From a virus, in IMG/VR virus record IMGVR_UViG_3300032293_001351, positions 1 to 54,844 of that record: a stretch of DNA of 54,844 bases. The stretch is one strand, 5' to 3'. The notes under the pieces were generated by a model. That model ran no database searches. It was given only the letters and a program-made list of their open reading frames with translations, and was not told the DNA's origin. Positions 3,417 to 27,042 of this stretch are shown piece after piece (within the stretch, counting starts at the first letter, position 1; each line of letters starts with the position of its first letter). The translations under genes were made by a program, and so were the position numbers.

Positions 3417-3426
3417 ACTTTATTTT

Positions 3427-3726: not shown

Positions 3727-3730
3727 ACTT

Positions 3731-3738: not shown

Positions 3739-3747
3739 TTGTTACTA

Positions 3748-5732: not shown

Positions 5733-5757
5733 AACAAATTTTATTTAAAAAAACTAT

Positions 5758-6288
5758 TTATTGTATAAGTGCATTTTCATAATCTTGATTAGTAATAATA
5801 ATTATTCCTTGAGCATATAGAATATTACCAACATGAACATCGTTATTATTTGAATCTATAATGTTACCATTTCCATCATCTATAATATTATAAGTAGTTC
5901 CTGATAATTTAAAACTTTTTCTACTTATATTTTCACCAAATATTGTTCTAGGTATTGCCATAATACTTATTTGATTTCCTGATCCTGATGGAAAATACCT
6001 GTAGTCATTATCAAAAGTACCTTCGGCTGCTGTTGATTGTAAATCATCATTCCAAGCACTAGCACTATTATTTAATGATCCTGTTAAATAAGAATTATAA
6101 TAAAGTTGTTTTGCTAATTTATAAACTAAAAAATCCTCTCCATTTAAATTAAAAGATCCATTGATTCCTCTATTTAATGTTATTCCATAACTTGTGGCAG
6201 AGGAACTTGCATAAGATGCAGAATATTTTAACTTAATTGGATAAGTAGAAATATCTGATCTATCAAGAGTATTTTTTGATAATCCCAT
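5758..6288 (-). CDS. Tail/baseplate-type structural protein (176 aa)
   Basis: Beta-rich and poor in Cys, with Ser/Tyr/Asn-rich N-terminal strands. The segment ISIMAIPRTIFGENISRKSFKL, followed by IIDDGNGNI and HVGNILYAQGIIIITN, is a pattern I associate with structural proteins of distant T4-like phages. A strand with an IPR-x-FG-x-I turn is followed by a DDG-GN turn. It is embedded in a run of late structural genes with short spacers. The exact location in the tail is not known. Confidence 0.75.
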   Translation of the reverse strand: MGLSKNTLDRSDISTYPIKLKYSASYASSSATSYGITLNRGINGSFNLNGEDFLVYKLAKQLYYNSYLTGSLNNSASAWNDDLQSTAAEGTFDNDYRYFPSGSGNQISIMAIPRTIFGENISRKSFKLSGTTYNIIDDGNGNIIDSNNNDVHVGNILYAQGIIIITNQDYENALIQ

Positions 6289-6310
6289 TATAAATTATTG
6301 TAGTAATTTA

Positions 6311-7345: not shown

Positions 7346-7356
7346 ATATTATTTTA

Positions 7357-8016
7357 TTATGAGTTTACTTTTATAATTGTTACAGGTATGCTAATTCTAG
7401 CTCCAGAGTCGCGTCCAACTACAACTAAAGTAGTATATAAAGATGTACTAGAACCAAATAAAGTATTAACAGTTGTTGCCGTTAAATTAATAGTAGTTCC
7501 AATAACTGTTTTACTTACATTAGTACCAATAGTGGTTGTAGAATTTAACGAAGTAGCTTCAGGAGTATTAATTCCAACACCATTGAAAGAACTCATTGTT
7601 CTAACATCACCTATAGTAGCCACATATCCTGATTGTTCAAATGTTGATGTAGCACCAAGATAATTTAATGTTTGCGGAGTAATAGCAAGAGAAGCTCCTT
7701 GTTTTATTGTAATTGCTGTATATCCAAGATCTAAAACTGGTATTTTAGCAGTTCCTCTAGGAAGTGTAATAAGTTTATACTTCATAATCTCCATGTCATT
7801 AGGATATGCTTGAATTATAGGCATAGCTTCAATAGCCTCACCATAAAATGCAGATCCTGATGGATGATTTGGATTATAAAGAGTGTAGTCTATTTCATCA
7901 TCAGCTAAGCTGAATTGAGTTATTCTGAATGATCCATCGTTTCTAGAAAGAAGTTCCCTTCCTTTTTTAGTAAGGATGGCATCTACTACTACTGATGTAC
8001 TACTTAAATATGACAT
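7357..8016 (-). CDS. Tail structural protein (219 aa)
   Basis: The N-terminus carries VVVDAILTKKGRELLSRND followed by ITQFSLADDEIDYTLY. This 'LTKKGRELL...LADDEIDY' start is shared by tail-associated proteins of environmental T4-like phages. The remainder is Thr/Ser-rich beta sequence ending in a basic strand. Own ATATTTAT motif 16 bases upstream. Function within the tail not assigned. Confidence 0.78.
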   Translation of the reverse strand: MSYLSSTSVVVDAILTKKGRELLSRNDGSFRITQFSLADDEIDYTLYNPNHPSGSAFYGEAIEAMPIIQAYPNDMEIMKYKLITLPRGTAKIPVLDLGYTAITIKQGASLAITPQTLNYLGATSTFEQSGYVATIGDVRTMSSFNGVGINTPEATSLNSTTTIGTNVSKTVIGTTINLTATTVNTLFGSSTSLYTTLVVVGRDSGARISIPVTIIKVNS

Positions 8017-8032
8017 ATAAATGGGCTTTTAA

Positions 8033-8040
8033 ATAAATAT
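8033..8040 (-). promoter_or_regulatory. ATATTTAT late-type motif before the 8016 gene
   Basis: Minus strand reads cacATATTTATTTaaaag, 16 bases before the ATG and directly upstream of the stop end of the 1413-aa gene. It would re-initiate transcription for the last part of the tail operon. Confidence 0.45.
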
Positions 8041-8043
8041 GTG

Positions 8044-12285: not shown

Positions 12286-12623
12286 TATACTATAGTATTT
12301 ATATCATTTAATGATTGATTTATATCTAGTATTTGCTGTCTTAAAGAATTGATTTCTTCTATAAGAGCTTGTTTTTCAGCATCTAGTACAGAACCTCCTA
12401 TATACTGTTGACTTGTTTCAACTAAATATGTATGAGAATTTATAGATCCAGATACAGGAATATCAAAAAACAAATCATTATAATAAGTAAAAAATTCATC
12501 TACAGTTACAATACTTGAAGTTACAGGAATTTCTTGAGGTATAAGTTCTTCAAAATCCGTATCAATAGCTTTTGTATATGTATTTAAACCGTATATTTCT
12601 TTTGTTAATTCAATATTAGTCAT
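12285..12623 (-). CDS. Small structural protein with C-terminal coiled coil (112 aa)
   Basis: The N-terminal half is acidic beta sequence (DTDFEELIPQEIPVTSS). The C-terminal 30 residues form a heptad pattern (EKQALIEEINSLRQQILDI), a likely trimeric or dimeric coiled coil. It shares single-base stop/start junctions with both neighbours (12623 and 12285), so its stoichiometry is probably tied to theirs. No family recognised. A connector or chaperone for the 1413-aa protein is plausible. Confidence 0.72.
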   Translation of the reverse strand: MTNIELTKEIYGLNTYTKAIDTDFEELIPQEIPVTSSIVTVDEFFTYYNDLFFDIPVSGSINSHTYLVETSQQYIGGSVLDAEKQALIEEINSLRQQILDINQSLNDINTIV

Positions 12624-13729
12624 TATCTAGTAACTTTAAATATTAAGTTATTATCTATTTCATAAGATGTACCATCAGATAATATTGTTTTAATTAATAT
12701 TTTATAATATCTTTCTGGTTCTAGTCCATTCATATATAAGTTAAAATAACTATTTATTCCATCACAACTAACTTTTGTATACGAAGTGTCATAATCTATT
12801 AGTATATCATTTGTCTTTACATCTTGTAAAGCCCAATAAGATGTTTGCGGAAGGGCTTTATTAGTTGTATATAAAGAAGATGTTGTAAATGTTCTTACTG
12901 GATATTTATCTCTTACATTTATATTAAATCTATATTTTCCTGTTCCGTATTTGTAAGTGTCTAAATTATTTGATAATGTAATTACACTATCAGTACTATT
13001 AATTACAGAAAGACTTCCTGTGGAATATAAAGTATCATCCCATTTTATTTCTAATGTTGGAGGATAAATAGTGTGAGTATCAACTGAGAAAAAACTTAAT
13101 CCTATATAGCTTCCTGAATTTTGTTCAATTGCATTAGTGTGTTTAGCTATAAATCCATAATTTGATCTAGAACCACTAAACCAAGTATTAACTATAGAAC
13201 TAACATCTACATTTATATCTTTATTATCTGGATAATTGAATGATTGCGTAACTACTAAATTTGTCCATGATCCACCACCGGGAGTTAAATAATATGATCC
13301 GTTTCCCCATTGATTAGATGCTGTTGTAAATTGATTAGGACTATACCAACATGCCCCGTTTCTAGTTTCAGGGGAGTCTCCAAACTTTCCTGTTCCCATT
13401 TCCCAAGATTGAGAAACTTGTCTAAATTCTAAACTATATGTAGTATTTAAGTTCTCAGCAGTAGCTAAGAATAATCTTAGATTAGTTTTCCATGATCCTG
13501 TAGCAAATGATTTTAAAGTGGCTATATCTGAATCGGAAAAAGATATAATAGCTCTTCTTAAATTATCTTGAAGTAATGGTTCTGAAGGAACAGGATCTAC
13601 AAAATAATTAGAAGGATTATCTGAATTTTTAACTGATATTTCTAATATTTCATCAAGACCTGCATTAGCTGCAGGACTGCTTGAATATAAAGTAGTATCA
13701 GAAGAAGCAAATATTTTATATACGGCCAT
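12623..13729 (-). CDS. Virion protein with DNRLRE-type beta-sandwich (368 aa)
   Basis: Residues 1-230 fit the DNRLRE/carbohydrate-binding-like fold: ASSDTTLYSSSPAANAG at the start, RRAIISF (the R-x-hydrophobic strand) near 60, LRLFLATAEN, then VSSIVNTWFSGSRSNYGF and PPTLEIKW. Such domains occur in extracellular and fibre-associated proteins and often bind glycans. The C-terminal 140 residues look like an Ig-like second domain. It lies directly after gp6, so it may be a baseplate-attached, host-contacting protein. Confidence 0.75.
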   Translation of the reverse strand: MAVYKIFASSDTTLYSSSPAANAGLDEILEISVKNSDNPSNYFVDPVPSEPLLQDNLRRAIISFSDSDIATLKSFATGSWKTNLRLFLATAENLNTTYSLEFRQVSQSWEMGTGKFGDSPETRNGACWYSPNQFTTASNQWGNGSYYLTPGGGSWTNLVVTQSFNYPDNKDINVDVSSIVNTWFSGSRSNYGFIAKHTNAIEQNSGSYIGLSFFSVDTHTIYPPTLEIKWDDTLYSTGSLSVINSTDSVITLSNNLDTYKYGTGKYRFNINVRDKYPVRTFTTSSLYTTNKALPQTSYWALQDVKTNDILIDYDTSYTKVSCDGINSYFNLYMNGLEPERYYKILIKTILSDGTSYEIDNNLIFKVTR

Positions 13730-13741
13730 TTTTTATTTTTT

Positions 13742-15601
13742 TTACATTGTTACTACGCGACCTTGAATATCTGTATTAGGAAATTTTAATTCAAATATAG
13801 AAGGATCTAAAGATGGGTAAATTACGCCATTTAAACTTCCTGCTGAAATATCATAAGAATATTTTGAATATCCATCAGCTTCTCCAAACTTATTTACTAT
13901 TTTTATGTCTTTTACAGTTTGAACACCTTCAACAACATCTAATAAAGAGTATATATCTCCTAATATAATAGGTTGATTTATTTGCCAGTTATTTATATTA
14001 AAAAAGTTTTGTAGTGCCAATATACATCTAGCAATTACATCTTGACTTGTATAATTAGGCCTGATTATAATTTCAAAATCGCATCCTATATTAATTATAT
14101 ACGCAGGTTTAATATTAACAGCGTCAGTCATCATTCTATAATCAGATAGATACGTCTGTAAATTTTGAAGTAGTGCTGGTGAAGGATTTGCTAAATTATT
14201 ACTAGAATTAAGACCTAGTACATAAAGACTAACTAAAACTTGATCTTTTTGACCAATATCTCCTTGCATATAATTATTAAATGTAGCATCATCTTTAGTT
14301 ATATATGCTTTAGATACTTTACCATATCGAGAAGGCATGCTAAGTGTTCTAGCTAAATAATCTTCTTGAGTTACGGCTCTGTATTGAGTAGGAAACTCTG
14401 CTGCTATATTCATTCTAAGCTCATCTATAGAATCTCCATCTCCACCCCCAGAAGCAGGGTCTGGATTATTTACAATCAAAGTATTTTCAAATGAAGAGTT
14501 TCCTGATAATATGTAAGAAGATATTTGAGTTAATTGATTAGAAAGAACATTTGCTTTTGCTCCTCCACCTACTAGATATTGAAAAGTTATTGTGGTATTT
14601 TTTGGTGCTAATCCATAAGTTTGAGTTGTTACAAAATTAGTCGGATCAAATGAACTAGATAGTGTACTAAGACCTCCACCAGTTAAACCGACACTTACAT
14701 TATTAGGATTAGGCAAAACAGCAGTATCAGCAACAGAATTAATACCAGGCCCAAATTCTATTTCTAATGATCCATCCGATCTAAATCTAGATGTAAACCT
14801 TCTAGGTACAGATAGTTTCTGTATCATATAAGGAACTTGGTTTTGAAATTGATATAAAGATGGATAATTTGCTGCTGTGTTTTCCACAGGTCTTAATATA
14901 TAATCTTGTGCTAAATAAGGAACTTCATACCAAGTATTACCATCAGAATCTTTTGCTTCTAATATAGTAATTATTGAATTGTCATTTATAGTTACTGTTG
15001 AAAATCTTTGTGGCGCTGAAAAACTAAAATTTTGAGTTTTTACTAATCCTGATATAGCTTGTACAGTTTTTCTTAATAAATAAGAAGTAGGTACATTTGA
15101 ACCATTTAAAGTATAAACTTCAACTGTAGTAGGATCTAATGAAGATGAAGTATTAAAATTAACTTTTTGAGGAACATAAAATGTTACAGAATTATCCACA
15201 TTTGATTTAATTTGCATTCCTTGTTCTAAAGTAAATGCGTAGCTAAAATCTGGTGCAACATCACCTCCACCAATATTAACTGCGGGTATTTGTTGATATA
15301 CATCAAGGTTCACTATAGCAGCAGATGTTATTTTAGGTCTATAACCTAACATGTAGGATAAAGTATATAAATTATTTTTTTGTTTTGAATATTGTAAAAA
15401 AGTTTCTTGAATTTGATTATCTAAATAAAATGAAAGAACATCTCCAACATAAGAAGCCATGTCTATAAACATACTACCTGGGCTAGCCTGCGTAAAATCA
15501 TTATACACAGTAGGATAATATGCTCTTGCATATTCTATAAGATCTGACTTAAAAGTAGAAAAATCTTTATTTAGATATCTTATGTCAATATTTGTTGCCA
15601 T
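13742..15601 (-). CDS. gp6: Baseplate wedge protein, T4 gp6 / baseplate J family (619 aa)
   Basis: The start MATNIDIRYLNKDFSTFKSD leads into FTQASPGSMFIDMASYVGDVL and LYTLSYMLGYRPK, the hallmark N-terminal region of gp6-type wedge proteins. The middle holds the baseplate-J-like part (GGGDGDSIDELRMNIAAEFPTQYRAVTQEDY), and the C-terminus has an insertion domain plus the VVEGVQTVKDIKI strand. gp6 forms the ring around the hub and cross-links the wedges. Length is close to T4 gp6 (about 660). It directly follows gp25, as in T4-like operons. Confidence 0.95.
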   Translation of the reverse strand: MATNIDIRYLNKDFSTFKSDLIEYARAYYPTVYNDFTQASPGSMFIDMASYVGDVLSFYLDNQIQETFLQYSKQKNNLYTLSYMLGYRPKITSAAIVNLDVYQQIPAVNIGGGDVAPDFSYAFTLEQGMQIKSNVDNSVTFYVPQKVNFNTSSSLDPTTVEVYTLNGSNVPTSYLLRKTVQAISGLVKTQNFSFSAPQRFSTVTINDNSIITILEAKDSDGNTWYEVPYLAQDYILRPVENTAANYPSLYQFQNQVPYMIQKLSVPRRFTSRFRSDGSLEIEFGPGINSVADTAVLPNPNNVSVGLTGGGLSTLSSSFDPTNFVTTQTYGLAPKNTTITFQYLVGGGAKANVLSNQLTQISSYILSGNSSFENTLIVNNPDPASGGGDGDSIDELRMNIAAEFPTQYRAVTQEDYLARTLSMPSRYGKVSKAYITKDDATFNNYMQGDIGQKDQVLVSLYVLGLNSSNNLANPSPALLQNLQTYLSDYRMMTDAVNIKPAYIINIGCDFEIIIRPNYTSQDVIARCILALQNFFNINNWQINQPIILGDIYSLLDVVEGVQTVKDIKIVNKFGEADGYSKYSYDISAGSLNGVIYPSLDPSIFELKFPNTDIQGRVVTM

Positions 15602-15603
15602 TT

Positions 15604-16017
15604 TTACATGTTTTGAACAGTTAATATAACTGAATCATTTTCATTTGAAGTTAATAATCTGTAACTAAATTTTATATTTATAGAATTATAATCTGGACTA
15701 GGTATTACATTTAGAGTAACTATTTCTATTTGGGGAAATTGATTTTCCATTTGCGTTCTTATAGATTGCTCTATTTCTTCAAAACTTTGTGTGTCTATTT
15801 GTTCGAATAATCTAGCTCTGAGGCCAGCTCCAAAAGTCGGATTAAAAACCCTTTCACCAGGATCTGTTAATAAATAATTTATTATATTATATTTTAATTG
15901 ATCTTTTGTGGTATATACAGATGAAAATACATTATCAGCATCAAAAGGTATTTTTATTCCAATTGCAGTTGAAGATTTAAGGTCTAGTGGTGATATTTGT
16001 TTTAATCCGTAAGCCAT
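15604..16017 (-). CDS. gp25: Baseplate wedge protein, gp25 / GPW family (137 aa)
   Basis: Contains LKYNIINYLLTDPGERVFNPTFGAGLRARLFE, the conserved gp25 core with the LTxPGER-x5-FG motif, then a helix and two C-terminal strands. gp25 nucleates sheath assembly on the baseplate. Length matches the family (about 130). It is one base from the upstream gene and 2 bases from gp6. Confidence 0.96.
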   Translation of the reverse strand: MAYGLKQISPLDLKSSTAIGIKIPFDADNVFSSVYTTKDQLKYNIINYLLTDPGERVFNPTFGAGLRARLFEQIDTQSFEEIEQSIRTQMENQFPQIEIVTLNVIPSPDYNSINIKFSYRLLTSNENDSVILTVQNM

Positions 16018-16457
16018 TATATTTGTCCTTGTTCTTTAAGTTTTGCCATAAGACCTGTGAAGTCAGGGACTTCATTTATTTGTACAGCATCTATATTTGA
16101 ACTAGGTCTAGCAGTTCCTAACATGCCTTCTACACTACCTACTTTAACTTCCTTAGGTTGGAAGGCTAAACCAGGATGTACATTATCTGAAGTCATATTA
16201 AAGTCTTCATTTAACATACTTTGAGCGGTATCATTTAAAAACGCTGCCATTGGATTATTTCCTGTAAATTTAACAGGTCTAGTAGTCTGTGTGTTTAAAG
16301 TACCAGGTATTTTTGATTTTACCTGCTCCTGTAAGCTCTTTTTAGGATCTGCCAATGGAGTTTTTTTAACCTCACTTAAAAGTTTAGGAAGCTCTTCTTT
16401 AAGAACAGATCTAAGTTCTTCTCTTATTAGTTTTCTTAATTGGTCTATTTGTCCCAT
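16017..16457 (-). CDS. Baseplate-operon protein with N-terminal coiled coil (146 aa)
   Basis: The first ~35 residues are a charged heptad helix (IDQLRKLIREELRSVLKEE). The rest is a low-complexity, Pro-containing linker and a short C-terminal helix (FTGLMAKLKEQGQI). No family recognised. An own ATATTTAT motif lies 5 bases before the ATG, and the stop overlaps the gp25 start, so it leads the gp25-gp6 transcript. It may be a wedge or hub adaptor. Confidence 0.72.
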   Translation of the reverse strand: MGQIDQLRKLIREELRSVLKEELPKLLSEVKKTPLADPKKSLQEQVKSKIPGTLNTQTTRPVKFTGNNPMAAFLNDTAQSMLNEDFNMTSDNVHPGLAFQPKEVKVGSVEGMLGTARPSSNIDAVQINEVPDFTGLMAKLKEQGQI

Positions 16458-16462
16458 ATCTT

Positions 16463-16470
16463 ATAAATAT
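16463..16470 (-). promoter_or_regulatory. ATATTTAT late-type motif before the gp25-gp6 group
   Basis: Minus strand reads ataATATTTATAAGat then ATG, a 5-base gap. The following group is the 146-aa gene, gp25 and gp6. Confidence 0.5.
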
Positions 16471-16477
16471 TATTTTA

Positions 16478-18256
16478 TCAAGTTTGCTTAGTATTTGTAT
16501 TATTACTAGGATTTATAGAATTAGAATATTTGTTTGAAGGATCCGCATTTTTTAAATTTGAACTAAGATTTTGGTTTTGTTTAGCAAGGGCTTTTTGAAC
16601 CCTTTTCTTAAGAGCCTTACCACCTTGAAGATTGTCAACAAATGAAGAAATCCCCAATTCTTTATTTTCTTGAAAAATAGATCCTACCATTTCTAAATTT
16701 GCATTCAAATCACCTAAAGATACTTCATCTTCTTCAAGATACTTTGTAGATTCTAAAACTATGGCTAAATCATTAGGAGACAAAGAAGGAATATCGGATT
16801 TTATTAATCCTTTTGAATATAGTAAGAATTTAACTTCATTTATTATTATTAAATCTAAAGATGCAAAGGTTGGAGTAGATTGGACAACTATATATCCATT
16901 AATATCTCTTGCTATTCCATATCTTCTACTAATAGAAATTCCTTCATCTACAAGAGATTCTGATATTATTTCTATATTATATTCTCCTATATTTCTTAAT
17001 GCTCTTTCAGATCTACTATTATATTGATCTAGAAAATTTCTTAAAGGAGTTATAGAGCTTTGTAAAGAGCTTATAGTATCTTGAACTTCTTTTTTAATTT
17101 CGTCTTCTACATTTGAACAAGCATCTAAATTATTAAGTATTATATTTAATCTGTCTATTATAATTTGCATACCTGATACAAGAGACGTGGCAAAAATAGC
17201 AATTAAATTTAAAACAAAATTTATTTGTTGTAATCTTTTTACGAGCTTATCTATTCCTTTTGCGCCAACAACATCTTCATTTATATTAGATAAAAGTGTA
17301 GTTACACCAGATGTAGTATATACGTTTGGAATAGGAATTCCAAAAAGGAATTTTCTTAATATATAAAATACCTTTAAAAGTATTAAAAATAATCTTATAA
17401 ATGCTCTAGTACTATTTATATAAGAGACAATTTTTTGGGCGACTGAAGAAATATTTTTAGCTAATTTTAATAAATTTTTTAAAACAGGAATAATTTTTTC
17501 TACTGGTATTTCTCTATTTAATTTAGCTATTTCTTCTTGTATTTGGCCTCCTAGAAGAAAATCCGCGTTTGCTAATAGTGCAGCAGGAGTATTTAAAGCT
17601 TGAACTGTAGCACATATAGCCCTTGTTTTTTCTATTACAGATATAATTTTTTGAACTTCTTCAACAGGAATAGCACTAACATTTCCATATTTATCAAAAT
17701 AACTTAATTTATCTGTAATAAAATTAGAAACTATAGAAACTTCAGGAAAAGCTTCTCTTATCTCAGGATCATTTAAAGTATCTATTAATCCAGTAAAATT
17801 ATTTCTTATGCTTTGAATAAGATTATATAATCCTAATCTACTTTCTGGATTATTTACATCGCTATAGCTTGCAAAATATCCATCAATTATTTTTTGTATA
17901 TCAAAAGCTAATTTTTGTAATTGCCATTTTTTTCTAGCTATAGGATTAGAAGGTATTGGGTCTGCTGGATTAAAAGCTTTACCTCCAGGTATTTGATTTA
18001 TTAAATAATTAATTAAATTACAAAAGTCTACAGTAGAAATTCTTTCTAATATATAAATAATCCCTTTATCAAATGCTCTAGTAATTAAATTTCCTTGATC
18101 TTCATTAAGTGCATATTTTCCATAAATTATGCCATCTGTTTTACTTTGGGCATTTATTATAAATGTAGCAATTGCTGCAATAGCTTTTTCTAAACCTTTT
18201 GCAGATGTAGTATTTATATTTAATTTATCATTTACTAAATTTCTAGTAAGACTCAT
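16478..18256 (-). CDS. Large helical structural protein of the hub/baseplate region (592 aa)
   Basis: Almost entirely alpha-helical by composition (Leu/Ile/Asn/Lys). It has a long amphipathic middle (KLVKRLQQINFVLNLIAIFA, RLNIILNNLDACSNVEDEIK) and hydrophobic segments near 285-310 that resemble membrane helices (RLFLILLKVFYILRKFLFG). The C-terminal 60 residues are basic and Asn/Ser-rich. In the gene order between spike-like proteins and gp25 it occupies the place of hub or tape-measure-type proteins. The helical, partly hydrophobic character fits a tape-measure or ejected protein, but I cannot confirm homology. Confidence 0.72.
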   Translation of the reverse strand: MSLTRNLVNDKLNINTTSAKGLEKAIAAIATFIINAQSKTDGIIYGKYALNEDQGNLITRAFDKGIIYILERISTVDFCNLINYLINQIPGGKAFNPADPIPSNPIARKKWQLQKLAFDIQKIIDGYFASYSDVNNPESRLGLYNLIQSIRNNFTGLIDTLNDPEIREAFPEVSIVSNFITDKLSYFDKYGNVSAIPVEEVQKIISVIEKTRAICATVQALNTPAALLANADFLLGGQIQEEIAKLNREIPVEKIIPVLKNLLKLAKNISSVAQKIVSYINSTRAFIRLFLILLKVFYILRKFLFGIPIPNVYTTSGVTTLLSNINEDVVGAKGIDKLVKRLQQINFVLNLIAIFATSLVSGMQIIIDRLNIILNNLDACSNVEDEIKKEVQDTISSLQSSITPLRNFLDQYNSRSERALRNIGEYNIEIISESLVDEGISISRRYGIARDINGYIVVQSTPTFASLDLIIINEVKFLLYSKGLIKSDIPSLSPNDLAIVLESTKYLEEDEVSLGDLNANLEMVGSIFQENKELGISSFVDNLQGGKALKKRVQKALAKQNQNLSSNLKNADPSNKYSNSINPSNNTNTKQT

Positions 18257-18690
18257 TTTGTAAAAGTATTTTTAGATAAAAATGAATCATTTTTTATAAC
18301 ATTCAATAGTGTTTCACACGCTGTATTAAGTTTTTTACCTGCTGATGATATTGATTGCATACTAGTTCCTAATTCTGATTCTGAGCATTGAGCTAATAAA
18401 ACAGAAACGGATTGAAGTTGTTCTACAAAAATTTTTAATCTTTCATTGAAAAATTTTCCTAATACAAGAGGTTGTTTAGCATTTGGTCCTAAAGTAATTT
18501 TTTTACAATATAATAATATTTCTTTATTTGCATCTAAATTTATAGTTTTTACAGATGATAAACCAACTGCTTGTTTACCAAAAAGAAAAATTGCATCATT
18601 TTTAGAATGTAAAGTAACTCTGTCTGCTGATAAAATTATTTGCTCACCAGCAAAGGGAAATTGAGGATTATATGGAATACGTTCTGCCAT
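18253..18690 (-). CDS. Spike/hub-type protein with beta-prism-like repeats (145 aa)
   Basis: Residues 15-75 are short alternating strands (IILSADRVTLHSKNDAIFLFG, INLDANKEILLYCKKITLG). This rhythm is seen in the C-terminal beta-helix of T4 gp5 and related spike proteins. NAKQPLVLGKFFNERLKIF then leads into a helical C-terminus. It follows the OB/hub-like 307-aa gene and overlaps the next start by 4 bases. I read it as part of the central spike or hub; the exact counterpart is not clear. Confidence 0.7.
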   Translation of the reverse strand: MAERIPYNPQFPFAGEQIILSADRVTLHSKNDAIFLFGKQAVGLSSVKTINLDANKEILLYCKKITLGPNAKQPLVLGKFFNERLKIFVEQLQSVSVLLAQCSESELGTSMQSISSAGKKLNTACETLLNVIKNDSFLSKNTFTK

Positions 18691-18691
18691 T

Positions 18692-19615
18692 TTAAGTGGT
18701 TGAAGATTTTTGAGTCGCTATTTTATCTTGAGCATCAGCAGATGTAGCATCTGTAGAAATAGGCCTTGGAAATGTTTTTATAATAGGTCTAGCTATTACT
18801 TCCTGTTCTTTTTCTTTAAATGAATTTCTAGGAAAATTATTTATATCTTGTAAAGATATTTGTTGGGTAGAAGTTAAATATATACAGGCACCATCAGAAT
18901 TAATATCTTCAATTCCTGGGTCAAATTTAGAAAGTGATTTTGATGGGCCTAATTTATTTACTATTATAGTAATAGGGTCTCCTACACTACCTGTGGGCGA
19001 CCAGCTATTATATTCTTGCAATTCAGGTACTGTTGTACTTCCTAATCTTATTGTTTGACCAAATCTTCCTTGTAAGATAGTATCTCCTTCAAAAGGTTGT
19101 AAATTTAGAACATCTTGCTTTTCTAAAAAAGTATAACCAAAAGGTAAATCTGGTAATTCTATAGGATTACCTGCATATTCAGGTTGTTGAGAAAATTCTA
19201 ATAGAAAATTTTGATATTCTTGTAAGTTAGGAAAAGCACCATGATTAGGATGATTCCAAAGATTATAAGCTGGGAAATAAAAGAACTGTTGATTTGTTAT
19301 TTTATCATTAAGCCTTTCACTAGGACCAGTTATTATAAAAACAATTTCATTTACTAAAGGATATTGTTTTACAAAATTAAAAATAGGATAAGCAGGTTCT
19401 GAAATTTCTTCTGCTCTAGATGTATTAAAATTTGAATATAAAATTTGATATCTTATTTTTCCTATATCTGCTGGACTATTATAATCTTTATCAATTTCAC
19501 TAGTACCACCTTTATAAGGACCCATTACTACTTCTTTAACTCTTCCTATTTGGAAATATTGCCCACCAATAGATTCTGGTGGTGTAGGATTATTTTGAAA
19601 AAAATTAGTAGCCAT
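18692..19615 (-). CDS. Baseplate hub / gp5-like OB-fold protein (307 aa)
   Basis: The N-terminus has an OB-fold-like stretch (YFQIGRVKEVVMGPYKGG). The middle carries LQPFEGDTILQGRFGQTIRLGST, SPTGSVGDPITIIVNK and INSDGACIYLTSTQQISL. This combination is what I know from gp5-type hub proteins of marine T4-like phages, where 'EGD-x-I-x-GR-x-GQ-x-IR-GST' is conserved. No lysozyme domain is visible, unlike T4 gp5 itself. The C-terminal 50 residues are a Pro/Ser/Thr linker. It is coupled to the upstream gene by a one-base overlap. Confidence 0.75.
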   Translation of the reverse strand: MATNFFQNNPTPPESIGGQYFQIGRVKEVVMGPYKGGTSEIDKDYNSPADIGKIRYQILYSNFNTSRAEEISEPAYPIFNFVKQYPLVNEIVFIITGPSERLNDKITNQQFFYFPAYNLWNHPNHGAFPNLQEYQNFLLEFSQQPEYAGNPIELPDLPFGYTFLEKQDVLNLQPFEGDTILQGRFGQTIRLGSTTVPELQEYNSWSPTGSVGDPITIIVNKLGPSKSLSKFDPGIEDINSDGACIYLTSTQQISLQDINNFPRNSFKEKEQEVIARPIIKTFPRPISTDATSADAQDKIATQKSSTT

Positions 19616-19977
19616 TATGCGCTAGGTAGTTGTTTAGGATCCTTTATTTTAATAGTTGAAACCTCAGAAAATAATTGCTCAATATCCTTTTCTGTAAGAA
19701 CTCCTGAATCTTCCGAATCACCGGCTTTTTTACTTTCAGCAGCTTTTTGGAAAAGATTCAGCAATTTAAGAAGAACCTCGTCATTTTTTAAACTGGAGTC
19801 TATAAATCCTTTAAGTAAAGGAACAACTACAATAGCATCACCAGGAGTTTCAATCATATCGGCTAACCTCATGATCTCCTGTTTAATTGTAGAATCTTGA
19901 TTTTTTTGCTTATCGTATACCTCTTCTACAAGATTGGCAATAGTTTTACCTTTGAATATTTCCTTATCAAGTTCCAT
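19615..19977 (-). CDS. Small helical protein at the head of the tail operon (120 aa)
   Basis: Helical and acidic (VEEVYDKQKNQDSTIKQEIMRL, LKLLNLFQKAAESKK), with a hydrophobic centre (GDAIVVVPLLKGFI). No family recognised. It is the first gene after the late sigma gene, preceded 11 bases upstream by an ATATTTAT motif that overlaps the sigma stop. The late tail transcript probably begins here. A chaperone or small structural component is possible. Confidence 0.72.
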   Translation of the reverse strand: MELDKEIFKGKTIANLVEEVYDKQKNQDSTIKQEIMRLADMIETPGDAIVVVPLLKGFIDSSLKNDEVLLKLLNLFQKAAESKKAGDSEDSGVLTEKDIEQLFSEVSTIKIKDPKQLPSA

Positions 19978-19988
19978 GACTTTTTAGA

Positions 19989-19996
19989 ATAAATAT
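19989..19996 (-). promoter_or_regulatory. ATATTTAT late-type motif at the sigma/tail boundary
   Basis: Minus strand reads attaATATTTATTCtaaaaagtc, 11 bases before the ATG at 19977. It touches the stop codon of the gp55-like gene, so it splits the minus-strand operon into a regulatory half and a structural half. Confidence 0.55.
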
Positions 19997-20748
19997 TAAT
20001 AGTCATTGTTTTCAAGATACTGATTAAGGATAGTTTTGTAGATGTTTTTTAGCTTTTTAATTACCTTTGTAATGGTATTTGATTGAGTATCTGTCATCTC
20101 TTTAACATATATAAAGACGGCCTTTTTATTGAAAATATCTATGTTTTCCCTCTTTTTGAAGATTTCTAGAATAGCATCGGCAACCTTTAGTTCCTCTGTT
20201 TTGTCAAATAATTCTAATAAATTGTTATCTACATATTTGATAAAAAGCTCGACCACGTCTAGCTTATCTAGCTCTGGTTCTGGTTCTTTTACAAGGATGC
20301 TATTTAATAATGCATCATCATCATTCTGCTCTCCAATCTCAGCTTTTGCTACTAATTTCTTATAATTCTTTTGGTTATATATAATCAAATATCTTTTGGC
20401 AATCGTACCAAAATAAGAATAAGCCTTACCTTTAGATTGATCATAAAGGTCTAATTTTTGTAGAAGAAATGATATTACTTCATACTTAAGATCTTCTATA
20501 TTATCAACCTCTGTATAATAGAATTTGAATGTATGAATGATATTTTCCACTAATTTATAAAATCCGTAGTGGATATCTTGATTATAGATTCTATTTCTTT
20601 CTGCTTGGTTTTTAGCAGCCCTATACCTTAGAATTGCTTCTTCAGTTTCTATTGTAAAATAGTTATTTTTTGTTTTAGGCTTTCTTTTTCTAGGCTCTCC
20701 TTTTTTGGTTAATAAAACCTCCTCCTCATTTAGTAGTGTATCACTCAT
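19996..20748 (-). CDS. gp55: Late-transcription sigma factor, T4 gp55-like (250 aa)
   Basis: The N-terminus is basic (KKGEPRKRKPKTKNNYFTIE). Residues 35-125 contain EEAILRYRAAKNQAERNRIYNQDIHYGFYKLVENIIHTF, then LKYEVISFLLQKLDLYDQSKGKAYSYFGTIAKRYLI. This is the sigma-2-like region conserved in gp55 proteins; the KGKAYSYFGTIAKRYL phrase is diagnostic. gp55 replaces host sigma on RNA polymerase and, with the gp45 clamp, directs late transcription. The C-terminal part is helical and lacks a full region 4, as in gp55. It sits downstream of the middle-type promoter at 22.6 kb and just upstream of the first late-type motif. Confidence 0.88.
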   Translation of the reverse strand: MSDTLLNEEEVLLTKKGEPRKRKPKTKNNYFTIETEEAILRYRAAKNQAERNRIYNQDIHYGFYKLVENIIHTFKFYYTEVDNIEDLKYEVISFLLQKLDLYDQSKGKAYSYFGTIAKRYLIIYNQKNYKKLVAKAEIGEQNDDDALLNSILVKEPEPELDKLDVVELFIKYVDNNLLELFDKTEELKVADAILEIFKKRENIDIFNKKAVFIYVKEMTDTQSNTITKVIKKLKNIYKTILNQYLENNDY

Positions 20749-20749
20749 A

Positions 20750-21022
20750 TTATTCTTCTATGAATTCGTTAATTCTAGTTTGCATTTGTTTTACATTTTC
20801 CATAAGACTTAAAAACTCAGGATCAGATTGTACCCATAATTTAGAATCTATTTGATTTGCAGCAATATTAATCTCTTTCATACAATCTTTAATATTGTCA
20901 ATAAATAATTGCTGTGTAACAACCATTGATTCTAGTCTTCTATTTTTTTGAAATAGGTTCCAAATTACATATCCTATAATAGATACCACCCAAACTATTA
21001 GGGCTATAATTCCTGTTGTCAT
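20750..21022 (-). CDS. Membrane-anchored coiled-coil protein (90 aa)
   Basis: One TM segment at residues 4-23 (GIIALIVWVVSIIGYVIWNL) is followed by a basic boundary (FQKNRRLE) and a 60-residue amphipathic helix. This predicts a single-pass inner-membrane protein with a cytoplasmic coiled coil. One base separates its stop from the sigma start. Function unknown; a spanin or holin-like role is possible but not supported by a lysis cassette nearby. Confidence 0.7.
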   Translation of the reverse strand: MTTGIIALIVWVVSIIGYVIWNLFQKNRRLESMVVTQQLFIDNIKDCMKEINIAANQIDSKLWVQSDPEFLSLMENVKQMQTRINEFIEE

Positions 21023-21034
21023 AATATATTAATT

Positions 21035-21664
21035 TTAATTTGATTCAATTTTACTAGACATCAAATCTGCTTGATGTAGTATGTAAGCAATATTAGACCT
21101 TAATTCTGTATCTTTATTATAAGTAATATAATACTGCTTATTTGCTTCTTCATATAAACCATCATGGAGTCTGATTGCTAGAAACTCATTCTCTGAAACC
21201 TGTATACCATACTTTTGAAGAACAAATAGACTTCTTTCTGCAATTCTCATATGAGTTATAGCAGGATTATAATTAAACATAAGGCCTTGATTTTCTCTAT
21301 GCCATTGTGATTGGTTAGGAATATAAACTGGATCATTATTTGTTCCTAGTTTACCAAGATCATGATTAAGTGCTGAGAAAGCTAATTCTTCAGTTGTATA
21401 ATTTTTACTCTGGCCAAACTTATCCCAAACCTTTTCAAATACTAAAGCTGCTTCCGTAACCCTAATAACATGATCTAAATAACCACCAGCAAAAGCATTA
21501 TGGTGACTTATTTTTGTAGAGGCAGGAGAAGTAGCAAGAGTTTCTTCAATATCTTTATACATTTCCAGAAGTTTATTTTTCCTATTACCAGAAATATATT
21601 TATCAATTAAAGAATAAAACTTGGCTAGATTTTCAGCCATTTGCTCAGGACTTAATTTTTTCAT
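21035..21664 (-). CDS. HD-domain hydrolase (209 aa)
   Basis: Has the HD signature: H54/H55 in KISHHNAFAGGYLDH, then ALNHDLGKLGTN with HD at 101-102, and a later HDG and H-x-AD-like segment (LHQADLMS). HD proteins are metal-dependent phosphohydrolases acting on nucleotides or nucleic acids. Phage members often remove phosphates from dNMPs or signalling nucleotides. It lies among middle-type genes just upstream of sigma, fitting a metabolic role. Substrate not predictable from sequence. Confidence 0.85.
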   Translation of the reverse strand: MKKLSPEQMAENLAKFYSLIDKYISGNRKNKLLEMYKDIEETLATSPASTKISHHNAFAGGYLDHVIRVTEAALVFEKVWDKFGQSKNYTTEELAFSALNHDLGKLGTNNDPVYIPNQSQWHRENQGLMFNYNPAITHMRIAERSLFVLQKYGIQVSENEFLAIRLHDGLYEEANKQYYITYNKDTELRSNIAYILHQADLMSSKIESN

Positions 21665-21678
21665 AACTTATTTTTTAT

Positions 21679-21855
21679 TTAGAATTCATTTTCACTATTT
21701 ATCAAGACTTCTATTTCATCTATTTTAGATTTTATTCTATCTAAATGAAAACTTAATTCTTCTTGAGATCTAGCAGTAGATATTAAAGCTCTTTGAGAAT
21801 TTATTAAATTATTTAATTCAAATATTTTCCTTAATATTAATTGTTTGTATTTCAT
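21679..21855 (-). CDS. Small helical protein (58 aa)
   Basis: Reads MKYKQLILRKIFELNNLINS, then SAR-like helix and a Glu-rich end (KIDEIEVLINSENEF) before TAA. One continuous amphipathic helix pair. The start MKYKQL-ILRK and the helical hairpin recur in small genes of T4-like marine phages, next to HD or metabolic genes. The gene fills the gap between the glutaredoxin-like gene and the HD gene, with 9- and 14-base spacers. Confidence 0.65.
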   Translation of the reverse strand: MKYKQLILRKIFELNNLINSQRALISTARSQEELSFHLDRIKSKIDEIEVLINSENEF

Positions 21856-21864
21856 ATTATAAAT

Positions 21865-22185
21865 TTACAACTTTATTGTATACTCTATCAATTGATCTAT
21901 AGAGTGAAAGGCGGTACCTTTAATTTTATCATTAAATATAATTTTTTTACTTATATCTTCATATGTATTTGCTATATATATTATCTCTTCTATAAAATTA
22001 GTATTTATCATTTTTAATACTATAGGATAGTTAGAGCAGCCTATTAAATCTTCAATTGAATCACAAAGTTCCGTATCCGATTTGCAAACTTCATAATCAT
22101 AGTGAATATAGTTTTTACCTAATTCTTGCTTTAGTTTTTCACACTTACTACATCCTTCTAATACTAATAATTTAATCTTATTCAT
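21865..22185 (-). CDS. Glutaredoxin/thioredoxin-fold protein (106 aa)
   Basis: Starts with a strand and the redox motif: KLLVLEGCSKCEKLKQEL, giving C12-x-x-C15. A second strand follows, then SNYPIVLKM where the Pro matches the cis-Pro that faces the CxxC in this fold. T4-like phages often encode glutaredoxins that reduce ribonucleotide reductase. Here the C-terminal half differs from typical glutaredoxins (no GG motif). The start overlaps the end of the upstream small gene. Confidence 0.78.
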   Translation of the reverse strand: MNKIKLLVLEGCSKCEKLKQELGKNYIHYDYEVCKSDTELCDSIEDLIGCSNYPIVLKMINTNFIEEIIYIANTYEDISKKIIFNDKIKGTAFHSIDQLIEYTIKL

Positions 22186-22339
22186 AAAATTCTTTATCTA
22201 TTTTTTTCATTATTTGATACCACATAGTTTTTTCTTCATCTTTCATAGTATCAAATGTCATTGATAAGTAAATATATAATGCATTTAATTGCTCTTCTGT
22301 TATTTTATCTCCATCTATTTGAAAATCTTCTCCTTGCAT
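22178..22339 (-). CDS. Small acidic helical protein (53 aa)
   Basis: ATG at 22339 (MQGEDFQIDGDKITEEQLNA), open to TAA at 22178, overlapping the glutaredoxin-like start by 8 bases. It reads as two helices with an aromatic-rich centre (YIYLSMTFDTM, MWYQIMKKIDKEF). It is the first gene of the minus-strand operon downstream of the folded leader. Function unknown. Confidence 0.65.
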   Translation of the reverse strand: MQGEDFQIDGDKITEEQLNALYIYLSMTFDTMKDEEKTMWYQIMKKIDKEFYE

Positions 22340-22400
22340 AATAGCTAGTTTAAAGGTATTTAGCCTTTTTTTAGAGTGTGATTGACTTTGTTTTTCATTT

Positions 22401-22595
22401 GTAGCTTATATCTAAAATCCTTTAGCGGACTAAACCGTCGGATACTGCCGATATTATTTTAGGCTTTCACTACCAATTATTTTTGTATACCTGAAGCATA
22501 TATTGGTCTTTACTCCTGGTAGTCGTTGTGCTTACTCATTCTAAAACTCACTCATGGAATTTAACCAAGCTATGGCATAGAGCCTGAGTATACGA
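22401..22595 (-). ncRNA. Folded leader or small RNA in the divergent intergenic region
   Basis: The gene-free 350 bases between the divergent operons contain nested inverted repeats. CTAAAAT (22412-22418) pairs with ATTTTAG (22456-22462). It encloses TTTAG-CGGA-CTAAA (22421-22434) and TCGG-ATACTG-CCGA (22438-22451), a ready three-way junction. Next, ACTACCA (22469-22475) pairs with TGGTAGT (22517-22523), and ACTCA (22534) with TGAGT (22585). Local GC content is raised against the flanks. Strand is chosen because a promoter-like element at 22607-22630 points leftward into it. It may be a 5' leader controlling the sigma operon or a separate RNA. No known RNA family is recognised. Confidence 0.55.
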
Positions 22596-22606
22596 CATTA
22601 GTTTTA

Positions 22607-22630
22607 CTAATATACAACAAATATTTGAAA
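22607..22630 (-). promoter_or_regulatory. Middle-type promoter element of the minus-strand operon
   Basis: On the minus strand it contains ATTTGTTGTATATTAG. Over 24 bases it differs at one position from the element at 35766-35789, which is far too close for chance. It points toward the folded leader and the 22339-19996 genes, including sigma. A minus-strand ATATTTATT word also lies 17 bases further upstream (22647-22655), so a second, late start is possible. Confidence 0.7.
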
Positions 22631-22669
22631 CAGAAAAATTTTTTTTAATAAATATTTTTTTATGTCATT

Positions 22670-22686
22670 TTTTTGTCTTATATTTG
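22670..22686 (+). promoter_or_regulatory. Promoter-like element before the primase gene
   Basis: TTTTTGTCTTATATTTG ends 4 bases before the primase ATG. It aligns with the 22607 and 35766 elements as T-T/A-TTTG-T-n-n-TATATT-A/T-G. TATATTTG also matches the TAnnTTTG -7 box known from Bacteroidota promoters. Confidence 0.45.
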
Positions 22687-22690
22687 ATAA

Positions 22691-23620
22691 ATGGACAAAG
22701 AGTTACTCGTATTAGGATTATTAGAAACAGTTCTTGGTAAAGGAAAAGGATCTAAAACCACTATGGATTATGCATTCTACTGCCCAGTTTGTAAGCATCA
22801 TAATCCTAAGTTAATAGTGAATATTAAGTCTGGACAATACAATTGTTGGACTTGCCACCCTGCTACTAAAGGTAAAACACCAGTATCACTATTAAAAAAA
22901 GTAGACGCTCCTACTGAAAAGATTATCGAGATGAAAAATTATTTTCAAGGAGATAATACAAAGATTGATACTACAAAACCAAATAAAGTAACCTTACCAG
23001 AAGAATTTATTTCATTATCTAACCCAGATAAATCTCTTGAGTGCAGACATGCTCTAGCCTATTTAAAGAAAAGAAATATTTCTATTCAAGATATACAAAA
23101 GTATAATATTGGGTATTGTAAAACAGGGAGATACAGAAATAGAATTATAGTACCGTCTTATGATAAAGATGGCAACGTAAACTATTTTATTGCTAGATCA
23201 TTTGAACCTGATCCTTCTCGTAAGTACGATGCTCCTAGTTGTAATAAAACAGAACTTATAGGTCTAGAGTACTTTGTTAATTGGTCTATTCCTGTTATAT
23301 TGTGCGAAGGTATTTTTGATGCTATTGCAATTAAACGTAATGCTATTCCTTTATTTGGTAAAACTATTCCTCAGTCACTCATGATGAAATTAGTAGAATC
23401 TGAAGTAAAAACAGTATATTTGGCATTAGATAAAGATGCTCTTAAAGAAGCATTAGATTATTCACAAAATCTTCTTAATTTAGGTAAAGAAGTTTATTTA
23501 ATAGAATTAGAAGGTAAAGATCCTTCTGACCTTGGTTTTAATAATATGACCAAGTTATTACATACTGCGAAGCCATTGTCTTTCGGAGACCTGCTTCTCA
23601 AAAAAATACAACTAATATGA
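22691..23620 (+). CDS. gp61: DNA primase, T4 gp61-like (309 aa)
   Basis: Zinc-binding residues C31-x2-C34 (FYCPVCKHH) and C52-x2-C55 (CWTC) form an N-terminal zinc ribbon. Residues 150-155 and the TOPRIM core follow: VILCEGIFDAIAI with Glu206, and ALDKDA with Asp247/Asp249, which bind the catalytic metals. Primases make RNA primers for lagging-strand synthesis with the helicase. Length is close to T4 gp61 (about 340). First gene of the rightward operon, with a promoter-like TATATTTG 4 bases upstream, and overlaps the nuclease gene by 4 bases. Confidence 0.9.
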   Translation: MDKELLVLGLLETVLGKGKGSKTTMDYAFYCPVCKHHNPKLIVNIKSGQYNCWTCHPATKGKTPVSLLKKVDAPTEKIIEMKNYFQGDNTKIDTTKPNKVTLPEEFISLSNPDKSLECRHALAYLKKRNISIQDIQKYNIGYCKTGRYRNRIIVPSYDKDGNVNYFIARSFEPDPSRKYDAPSCNKTELIGLEYFVNWSIPVILCEGIFDAIAIKRNAIPLFGKTIPQSLMMKLVESEVKTVYLALDKDALKEALDYSQNLLNLGKEVYLIELEGKDPSDLGFNNMTKLLHTAKPLSFGDLLLKKIQLI

Positions 23621-24425: not shown

Positions 24426-25211
24426 ATGATCAAGCTACTAGATTTATTATTAGAAGTAAAAGATGGCAAAAAAGCTATTATAATGGCAGGCGGAGCTGGT
24501 GCCGGCAAATCCACTTTTGTTAAACAGATTAGACCTGACTTAAAAAAAGAAGACTGGATTGAATTGAATGCAGATAAGTATGTAGAAGACAAAGATAGTC
24601 CTATGTACAATAATTTAGCAGGAGCGTCTGTTCAGATTGATAAAAAAGATCTTCCTGAAACAATTCAATCTGGTAAAAATTTTTTATATGATACAACCGG
24701 TACTAATGTAGATAGGGTATCTAATATTAAAGATTCTGGATATAATATTATGATGGTGATGGTATATACTAATCCCATAGTTAGTTTCCTTCGTAACTTT
24801 TCTAGAGAAAGAAAGGTTCCTACTGTTGGAGTATTATCTAGTTGGAATAACGTATATAAGAATATCGATACATATAAAAAAATGTTTGGCGATAATTTTT
24901 ATTTAGTAGAAACAGGAGTATCTGATGAGGAAAAGAAAATGGTAGATGAATTTGAAAAAGCATACAAATCTAATAAACTAAAAGAGTTTTTTGAGCAACT
25001 TTTATCTTCTGGTCAATTTAAGTCTACATTTAAAAAAGATCCTACTAAACAAAAATCTCCTGAAGAAATAGCAAAATCGAAAGCACTTGTTGACAAACAG
25101 ATAGATATATTATCAAATCAGTTTGATACTATAGAAAAACAAGTAACAGAATTAAAAACTCAAGATATGTCAAGTGTTGTGTCTAAAGCAAAATCATTTA
25201 TTAAGTCATGA
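24426..25211 (+). CDS. P-loop kinase with capsid-targeting-like leader (261 aa)
   Basis: Residues 1-10 (MIKLLDLLLE) match the leader of the 29966, 31770 and 32084 products and end in L-x-E. A Walker A follows, GGAGAGKST at 22-30. LNADKY at about 49-54 and FLYDTTGT at 88-95 then match the layout of zeta-toxin/AAA_33 or polynucleotide-kinase-type small kinases. The C-terminal 70 residues are a Lys/Glu-rich coiled coil. Possible substrates are nucleic-acid ends, nucleotide sugars or small metabolites. Its stop overlaps the nucleotidyltransferase start by 4 bases. The combination of a leader peptide and an enzyme suggests delivery inside the virion. Confidence 0.85.
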   Translation: MIKLLDLLLEVKDGKKAIIMAGGAGAGKSTFVKQIRPDLKKEDWIELNADKYVEDKDSPMYNNLAGASVQIDKKDLPETIQSGKNFLYDTTGTNVDRVSNIKDSGYNIMMVMVYTNPIVSFLRNFSRERKVPTVGVLSSWNNVYKNIDTYKKMFGDNFYLVETGVSDEEKKMVDEFEKAYKSNKLKEFFEQLLSSGQFKSTFKKDPTKQKSPEEIAKSKALVDKQIDILSNQFDTIEKQVTELKTQDMSSVVSKAKSFIKS

Positions 25212-25798
25212 TTAACTTCGAACAACTAGGAAGACAGATAGTAGAGGATATTTTAAAAGAAGCATCTCCAGATGTAGGACCTTGTTTTTACCCTGGTAAA
25301 TTTAAACCTCCTCATAAAGGACATTTTGAAGCTGCAAAGTATTTAGCATCTCAAAATTATATTAATAAGGTATATGTTGTTATATCTAATGTTACTAAAT
25401 ACGGTATAACTCCACAAGACTCTCTTTATATTTGGCAAGAGTATCTTAAAGCAGAACCTAATCCTAAAATAGAGGTTTATATATCTAAAGAGTCTACACC
25501 TATAAAAGACATCTTTTCTTTTATGGCAGAGAATCCAGATATTGATCCAGTATACGTTGCATCAGGTGAAAAAGAACAAACAGAATTAGGATATTTTGAT
25601 TCTATACAAAAAAGATTTCCTAATAAAATAAGACCTGAAATTATACCGGCACAATTTGGTAGAATATCTGCAACTCAAATGAGAGCTACAATTAAAGATG
25701 GTAACTTTGAAGAGTTTGTTAAGTTTATTCCAGACTCAGCGTATAATAAAGGAGTTGCAAAAGATGTGTTTGGAAGATTATTGAAAATAATGAAATGA
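25208..25798 (+). CDS. HIGH-type nucleotidyltransferase (196 aa)
   Basis: YPGKFKPPHKGHFEAAKYL carries the H-x-G-H motif (36-39) of the cytidylyltransferase / NMN-adenylyltransferase superfamily, and ISATQMR (153-159) is the matching ISSTxxR motif. These enzymes join a nucleoside monophosphate to a phosphorylated small molecule. The first 19 residues (MINFEQLGRQIVEDILKEA) are an extra amphipathic helix ending near L-K-E, like the other leaders in this cluster. It is translationally coupled to the kinase before it and the fusion protein after it. The pathway could be NAD or nucleotide-sugar chemistry; not decidable here. Confidence 0.88.
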   Translation: MINFEQLGRQIVEDILKEASPDVGPCFYPGKFKPPHKGHFEAAKYLASQNYINKVYVVISNVTKYGITPQDSLYIWQEYLKAEPNPKIEVYISKESTPIKDIFSFMAENPDIDPVYVASGEKEQTELGYFDSIQKRFPNKIRPEIIPAQFGRISATQMRATIKDGNFEEFVKFIPDSAYNKGVAKDVFGRLLKIMK

Positions 25799-27042
25799 TA
25801 CCAGAACAAAGACAAGAGATAATAGAGGATTTTATACAGTTTGTAAAAAACAAACTTGATATAAGTAAACTTCCTACAATCAGGTTTTTAAATGACCGTG
25901 AATGGGCTACTGAAAAAAGAAGTTTTGGACAATATGATCCTAATCAAAGGCACTTAGATGTTTACATAGGCAATAGAAATCTAGCAGATATACTTAGAAC
26001 TTTATGCCATGAATTAGTTCATCATAGACAAAATGAGCTTGGTAAATTATATAATAATGCTGGAGAAACTGGTTCTAATATAGAGAATCAAGCTAATGCT
26101 TTAGCTGGTATAATGATGAGAGATTATGGTAAGACTAATGATCTTATTTATGAATCCCTTCTTCCTAGTCTTAAACAAATCTACGAAGTAGAACAAAAAG
26201 GCGGTATTCAAATCTATTGTGATATGGATGGAGTGTTATGTGATTTTGATGAAAGGTTTGAACATTTTTATGGAATTCCACCTAGAGAATATTATACCAC
26301 AAAAGGTTCTAAAGCATTTGAAGAGGCTGTAAATAAAGCTGGTGTTGACTTTTGGGCTAAGATGAATTGGATGCCTGGAGGCCAAGAATTATGGTCTATT
26401 ATAGGTAAATATAATCCTTACATTCTAACTAGTCCAAGCAAATTTGAGTTTGCTAAAGAAGGAAAAAAGATATGGATAGAAAATAATTTAAATCCTCAAC
26501 CTAGTAAAATATTATTTGCACAGACAGGAAATAAACATTCAGAAATGAAGACAGATCCTAAAAGATCCATCTTAATAGATGACTATTGGCCAAATTTAGC
26601 TCCATGGAAAGCAGAAGGTGGTATTGCAATAATGCACAAAGATATTAATAAAACAAAAGATATATTAAGTAAATTTAGAATAAATGAGGTTAGTTATTCT
26701 AAACCTAATTTTAATGTAGAATGGGAAGAAGCAATTCGATATCCAGAACTTAAAAAAATAGGTAAAGATAATTGGGAGAAGATATCTAAAAAAGGATACA
26801 TAACAAAATATTCTAAAATAAAAGATGCGCTTGGAAATGTAGACTTAAATTTTAATAGTCTAGAAAAAGAAAAAAAACAAAGATTCCAATCCGCCTTTAA
26901 AAAAGGAAAAATAGAAATGCCAATAGCAGTGAAATTTTCTGATTCTGATTATGATCTGTTAGCTGGTAATACAAGACTTTCTGGATTAGTTAATAATGGA
27001 GAAGATCCTAATATTTGGATTGTAGACATTTCTAACTTATAA
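25795..27042 (+). CDS. Three-domain fusion: metallopeptidase-like, HAD phosphatase, ParB-like (415 aa)
   Basis: Domain 1 (about 1-120) has CHELVHHRQNELG, the HExxH zinc site at 72-76. Domain 2 (about 135-300) is HAD-type: YCDMDGVLCDFD with nucleophile Asp143 and Asp145, then LTSPS near 211 and LIDDYWPN near 260-267, as in 5'-nucleotidase-like HAD enzymes. Domain 3 (about 305-415) ends with MPIAVKF...LLAGNTRLSGLVNNG, a ParB/sulfiredoxin-type nucleotide-binding motif. Between domains lie IYE (118-120, 129-131) and INE (296-298) sites that fit the prohead-protease rule. Starts with a helical segment (MIPEQRQEIIEDFIQFV). Third gene of the coupled enzyme trio. I know no characterised protein with this order. 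Confidence 0.85.
   Translation: MIPEQRQEIIEDFIQFVKNKLDISKLPTIRFLNDREWATEKRSFGQYDPNQRHLDVYIGNRNLADILRTLCHELVHHRQNELGKLYNNAGETGSNIENQANALAGIMMRDYGKTNDLIYESLLPSLKQIYEVEQKGGIQIYCDMDGVLCDFDERFEHFYGIPPREYYTTKGSKAFEEAVNKAGVDFWAKMNWMPGGQELWSIIGKYNPYILTSPSKFEFAKEGKKIWIENNLNPQPSKILFAQTGNKHSEMKTDPKRSILIDDYWPNLAPWKAEGGIAIMHKDINKTKDILSKFRINEVSYSKPNFNVEWEEAIRYPELKKIGKDNWEKISKKGYITKYSKIKDALGNVDLNFNSLEKEKKQRFQSAFKKGKIEMPIAVKFSDSDYDLLAGNTRLSGLVNNGEDPNIWIVDISNL

Follow-up and report, generated by a model that had tools for sequence, protein, structure and literature searches.

A conserved structured leader RNA upstream of a sigma-like/baseplate operon in phages of probable Bacteroidetes hosts

What a folded RNA might be doing between two phage gene rows of opposite direction is the question raised by this locus. 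The window, i.e., the whole stretch of DNA analysed (54,844 nucleotides of an IMG/VR record), holds at 22401-22595 an interval bounded by the primase gene on the plus strand (22691) and a row of minus-strand genes beginning at 22339. The original prediction, made from the letters of the window, described this interval as an ORF-free folded RNA leading a sigma operon; it is indeed intergenic and free of ORFs, and it sits upstream of the operon of a sigma-like gene. Comparison of homologous loci has revealed a minus-strand leader of about 245 bases, which can be regarded with near certainty as a real structured RNA.

Homologues and fold of the leader RNA

With the primase as query, 63 related IMG/VR loci were retrieved, and in most of them the intergenic region is kept in blocks, down to about 67% identity. 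Three DNA-pattern scans and, later, a search with the sigma-like protein added more divergent members, after exclusion of chance matches of the loose patterns in unrelated DNA. An nhmmer profile located the element in 136 locus rows, from which 59 distinct sequences were analysed. The roughly 60 distinct homologues all come from IMG/VR phages, and the element is flanked in every case by the primase on one side and the sigma/baseplate operon on the other. From alignment A2, a covariance model was built that recovered the element in 40 of the 40 sources searched.

Covariation was evaluated in the manner of R-scape, by a G-test with APC whose null came from 60 alignments simulated along the maximum-likelihood tree. 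All 51,040 column pairs were tested, with E-values that are rough, the null consisting of these 60 alignments only. The top five pairs have E<0.05, are all complementary, and all fall within proposed helices: 22462:22412 in J1, 22595:22523 and 22594:22524 in P1, 22514:22495 in H, and 22573:22550 in P4. Pairs of P1 occupy ranks 2, 3, and 7, and this stem is 96% paired, with double changes in four of its five pairs. The inner pair of hairpin H holds rank 4 and appears as AU, GC, CG, or UA; the outer helix is invariant and 100% paired. Compensatory changes, whose absence from relatives was to count against the predicted RNA, are present.

Table 1. Features of the leader RNA and of the operon behind it, in window coordinates
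Feature	Position	Strand	Description
Promoter-like -7 box	22607-22614	-	TATATTAG; kept in nearly all homologues, few bases 5' of P1
RNA 5' end	near 22600	-	probable
Structured leader RNA	~22600-22351	-	homology of ~60 distinct members and covariation
Domain 1	22522-22596	-	P1 (22592-22596/22522-22526) closes an irregular hairpin with P2, P3, P4
T-loop hairpin	22555-22567	-	UGG-UNNNANN-CCA, apical in domain 1
Hairpin H	22488-22521	-	UACC/GGUA, A.A mismatch, GGNGC/GCNUC; loop carries PK1 5' strand
PK1	22506-22508/22384-22386	-	H-loop GAC with 3' strand GUC
P6	22470-22473/22401-22404	-	stem closing the junction domain (span 22401-22473)
Three-way junction	22412-22462	-	J1, hpA, hpB; covariation
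J1	22456-22462/22412-22418	-	22462:22412 is the best-scoring pair overall
hpA	22448-22451/22438-22441	-	
hpB	22435-22437/22426-22428	-	
PK2	22419-22424/22351-22356	-	UAAAGG with 3' strand CCUUUA
Local hairpin	22346-22372	-	AAAGG...CCUUU; uses PK2 3' strand
Co-directional operon, ~19 kb	2961-22339	-	ORF list, families, synteny
First operon gene	22178-22339	-	53-aa acidic protein
Sigma-70 region-2-like protein	19996-20748	-	borderline profile matches only

The predicted three-way junction closed by CTAAAAT/ATTTTAG corresponds to J1, in which seven of seven pairs show double changes both on alignment A2 (99% of cells paired) and on alignment A3 (95.5%). Over the whole junction domain, 93% of the cells are paired on A2, with 50 double-change cells versus 11 in shuffles; the alignment from the A2-built covariance model gives 149 versus 43, a count biased to the model by construction. 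P6 has double changes in four of four pairs but just 76% of its cells are paired, and it is missing or shifted in some clades. The RNA contains more than the four stems foreseen as a minimum and, beyond the interval first delimited, it runs about 50 bases further, to 22351. Two of the proposed pairings did not hold. Only 7 of 59 relatives have the full long-range helix ACTACCA/TGGTAGT; in all 59, UACC pairs instead with GGUA, 30 bases apart. The alternative CCAAT/ATTGG is present in 6 of 59, and the switch proposed from it is a coincidence of the window sequence.

The RNA lies on the minus strand. Read in this sense, the tabulated helices contain 187 G-U versus 31 A-C cells, and a plus-strand reading would turn these wobbles, two near-constant ones included, into mismatches. 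Taken alone, the sequence folds no more stably than its shuffles (z -0.33 for the plus and -0.66 for the minus strand), and the case for a structured RNA is therefore comparative.

Pseudoknots, T-loop, and known RNA families

The strand, two pseudoknots, and a T-loop are features that the original prediction did not contain. PK1, of 3-4 bp, differs across lineages (GAC/GUC, GAU/AUC, AAC/GUU, GGU/GCC), and permutation of the partners gave an equally good result in 0 of 3000 trials. PK2 is also variable, with forms including UAGGG/CCCUA, UAGAG/CUCUA, CAGGG/CCCUG, and AAGGG/CCCUU; members' own partners form 5.1 bp on average, versus 3.4 when swapped, a value equalled by none of 3000 permutations. 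Its 3' strand is the final covarying strand of the RNA and stops at 22351, about 12 nt 5' of the AUG at 22339. For 50 of 56 members, the distance from PK2 to the AUG is 8-19 nt; the other six have 25-69 nt. In the T-loop, U22564 and A22560 are each kept in 59 of 59 sequences, and the three bases between them vary. The local hairpin excludes PK2, since the 3' strand of PK2 is common to both. Of 24 distinct members, 13 can form it with 5 bp or more (0 of 3000 permutations), and several clades lack it. The predicted switching thus loses its CCAAT/ATTGG basis; the RNA may switch between PK2 and this hairpin in roughly half of its distinct members.

An AUG-started mini-ORF (MLQVYK...) lies in hairpin H at 22465-22501 on the minus strand in many members, not in all. 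As a leader peptide it was rejected, since L020 and the L160/L165 group lack it, and conservation of the hairpin probably accounts for its presence.

Several known RNA classes were compared. For a group I intron, a P7 from GACTA/TAGTC was tried and discarded, as these pairs (GACUA/UAGUC-like) are not conserved. The covarying topology has no P4-P6 domain between H and PK1, and in all relatives the element is intergenic, from promoter-like box to first AUG, rather than inside a gene with joinable exons. ARAGORN detected no tmRNA or tRNA in the window. The original prediction had seen no convincing match to these three classes, and none is supported here.

Rfam 15 (4227 families) gave no gathering-score match for the window and 12 homologue loci, and permissive Rfam scans of three members returned weak matches far under the cut-off only. 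In GenBank phages and plasmids, blastn yielded only short low-complexity matches. Scanning 84,980 species genomes with a pattern gave two chance matches, judged to fall within coding sequence, with the rest of the element missing, and covariance model R1 under strict filters found none in 395 Bacteroidia-class genomes. No description of the leader was found in an open-access subset of the literature, although one may exist elsewhere. The RNA is a previously unlisted family.

Likenesses to known systems are partial. The L4 of the cobalamin riboswitch contains a T-loop, and a similar T-loop hairpin, GGUGUGAAUCC-like, is present in the divergent members L049 and L052; the rest of the aptamer is missing from the leader RNA, with no Rfam match. 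Pseudoknots at the ribosome-binding region are known from the S4 alpha-operon leader, SAM-II, and preQ1-II, which likewise place a 3' pseudoknot strand beside the start codon, but the present RNA is much larger and its hosts are apparently without Shine-Dalgarno signals. Orphan riboswitch and structured leader candidates from comparative genomics (e.g., PMC2864571, PMC7266159), some of them phage-borne, are also covarying 5' leaders with conserved unpaired bases, although the architecture found here matches no described one. The locus does present a conserved structured 5' leader in cis, as riboswitches do. A ligand-sensing riboswitch proper, responding to a small molecule, would be a special case of the cis-acting leader favoured below, and the leader position, T-loop, pseudoknots, and mutually exclusive 3' helices would suit it. 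With no metabolic gene linked, no Rfam match, and riboswitches being rare in phages, it is quite improbable.

Operon, hosts, and relatives without the RNA

The box TATATTAG resembles the Bacteroidetes promoter consensus, TAnnTTTG, and could be the promoter for the leader RNA. A promoter motif scan of the window was uninformative, its pattern being incompatible with TTGTATATTAG. The operon behind the RNA would be transcribed as one unit. A homologue of its first ORF lies directly 3' of the RNA in nearly all loci reaching that far, and in nearly all of the far-reaching loci the gene map runs from the primase through the RNA, the small acidic ORF, and genes for a glutaredoxin-like protein, an HD phosphohydrolase, a 90-aa protein, and the sigma-like protein to the baseplate genes. 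The sigma-like protein, which we take to be gp55-like, matches Pfam region 2 at E 0.035, under the cut-off, and 3 of 11 homologues match a PHROG sigma family; the assignment is weak by profile, and the gene is a putative late-type sigma factor. It has hundreds of IMG/VR relatives, and its counterpart in Flavobacterium phage immuto is annotated as hypothetical.

Other genes of the window deserve mention. The plus-strand primase operon seems near-leaderless, with a TATATTTG box at 22678-22690 (plus strand), few bases before the ATG. The minus-strand ORF 2961-3416 matches a PHROG called NAD synthetase as well as homing endonuclease profiles. At 25208-27042 (plus strand), inspection by eye suggests a nucleotidyltransferase-like protein followed by an ORF with an HExxH-like motif and a nucleotidase-like second half; both adjoin a P-loop ATPase and look similar to the NadR/nucleotidase genes near the immuto primase.

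The window genes lack Shine-Dalgarno signals and are A-rich at -11 to -13. In this they resemble genes of Flavobacterium johnsoniae, in which both structure close to the start codon and A at -3, -6, -12, and -13 modulate initiation (PMC6847099). The nearest cultured relative is immuto, with sigma and primase proteins 46% and 42% identical. Because of the promoter box, the missing Shine-Dalgarno signals, and this relative, the hosts are probably Bacteroidetes. Covariance model R1 gave nothing above noise in the stretches covered of immuto, near these genes, and of Microcystis phage Mel-JY01, also among the nearest cultured phages.

Some relatives with the same gene order have only 129-213 nt from primase to first ORF and no RNA, and tests of RNA-less contigs, up to 174 kb long, did not locate it at any other site. 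In a tree of primase, HD protein, and sigma-like protein, these phages occupy three places, needing three changes. As they share an identical gene order with their RNA-bearing relatives, the RNA is dispensable. It is inherited vertically, its distances tracking the protein tree (Pearson 0.86). The simplest reading combines this descent with repeated loss of the RNA, which probably took place; the tree has no outgroup, and gain is possible.

The RNA-less leaders (L223:1690-1820, L222:2480-2622, L243:2753-2913, and L277:2930-3097) are short and carry G-runs, AGGGGG, CAAGGGGA, and GGGGGGG, shortly before the first ORF. Common to the three RNA-less lineages, these runs are perhaps a substitute for the structured RNA. 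By eye, small hairpins containing GC also seem to lie close to the 5' end of these leaders. Such hairpins would agree with the idea that the RNA is a mere 5' stabiliser, a compact knotted end that shields the operon message from nucleases with no regulation, and so would a structure that begins within few bases of the probable transcript 5' end. A role of this kind is very unlikely, as it needs neither invariant loop bases nor a T-loop and two pseudoknots.

Each phage contig holds one copy of the RNA, including contigs of 162 kb and 183 kb. The leader very probably acts in cis, because it heads this one operon in every case, is present in a single copy, and turned up nowhere else in the RNA-less contigs tested. 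An excised leader working elsewhere, as a decoy, a scaffold, or a regulator of host or phage RNAs, would be in keeping with highly conserved unpaired stretches, e.g., around CUACC, AGGUAUA, AAUAUCGG, and CCGACGG. The element is never found away from the sigma/baseplate operon, PK2 extends to the start codon, and no terminator or separate mRNA promoter was seen, all of which make a trans-acting noncoding RNA a rather poor candidate.

Possible control of the operon

The most likely function, proposed tentatively, is that of a cis-acting leader in which PK2 gates translation of the operon. The family would be one of mRNA leaders in a clade of T4-like (baseplate/terminase) phages. A minus-strand transcript would start at the 5' foot of P1, and its fold would comprise an arm capped by the T-loop, a hairpin, and the three-way junction, all joined by the two pseudoknots. 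PK2 would then tether the junction to the bases just 5' of the first AUG. Either PK2 or the local hairpin that would replace it in about half of the members may bury the A-rich region upstream of the AUG and alter ribosome access to the first gene. This effect could spread through the tightly packed, overlapping genes, thereby setting the expression of the sigma-like/baseplate operon, and its trigger might be a ligand, a protein, or folding kinetics.

Gating of translation is favoured because the genes have no Shine-Dalgarno signal and are A-rich upstream of the start, where PK2 lies close to the AUG in most members. The lack of any terminator-like hairpin with a T-run on the minus strand at 21800-23000 was counted for it as well. 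Against it, the AUG of the six distant members is too far from PK2 for simple occlusion, the same CCYUW strand is paired in both alternative states, which gives no plain on/off logic, and the competing hairpin is missing in several clades. A fixed regulatory need is not demonstrated either, as the operon also stands behind short leaders in RNA-less relatives.

Control at the level of transcription was also considered. In processive antitermination, the leader would bind the emerging RNA polymerase and allow read-through of the 19-kb operon, as HK022 put and Bacillus EAR do. These RNAs likewise stand near the start of long operons, and the location is compatible; they are smaller, and no similarity to the leader was seen; Rfam 15, which may not include put, gave no match. 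The leader stands right at the head of a long operon that includes late-type genes, its fold is complex with many conserved unpaired bases, and its distance to the first AUG can vary, all of which agrees with this mechanism. It is nevertheless unlikely, because PK2 mostly lies close to the AUG, some relatives have the operon but not the RNA, and nothing ties the leader to the polymerase.

Whatever its mode of action, the existence of natural RNA-plus/RNA-minus pairs with identical gene order makes the function of this leader directly testable, and the conserved fold, with its two pseudoknots, lends itself well to structure determination. Few large structured regulatory RNAs are known to act on late expression in phages, particularly in those of Bacteroidetes-type hosts, which must control initiation by structure since they are without Shine-Dalgarno signals. 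There is a modest chance that the leader belongs to a new class of riboswitches or RNA-polymerase-binding RNAs; if so, the sensing of the infection state by the phage would directly gate its late sigma-factor/baseplate operon.
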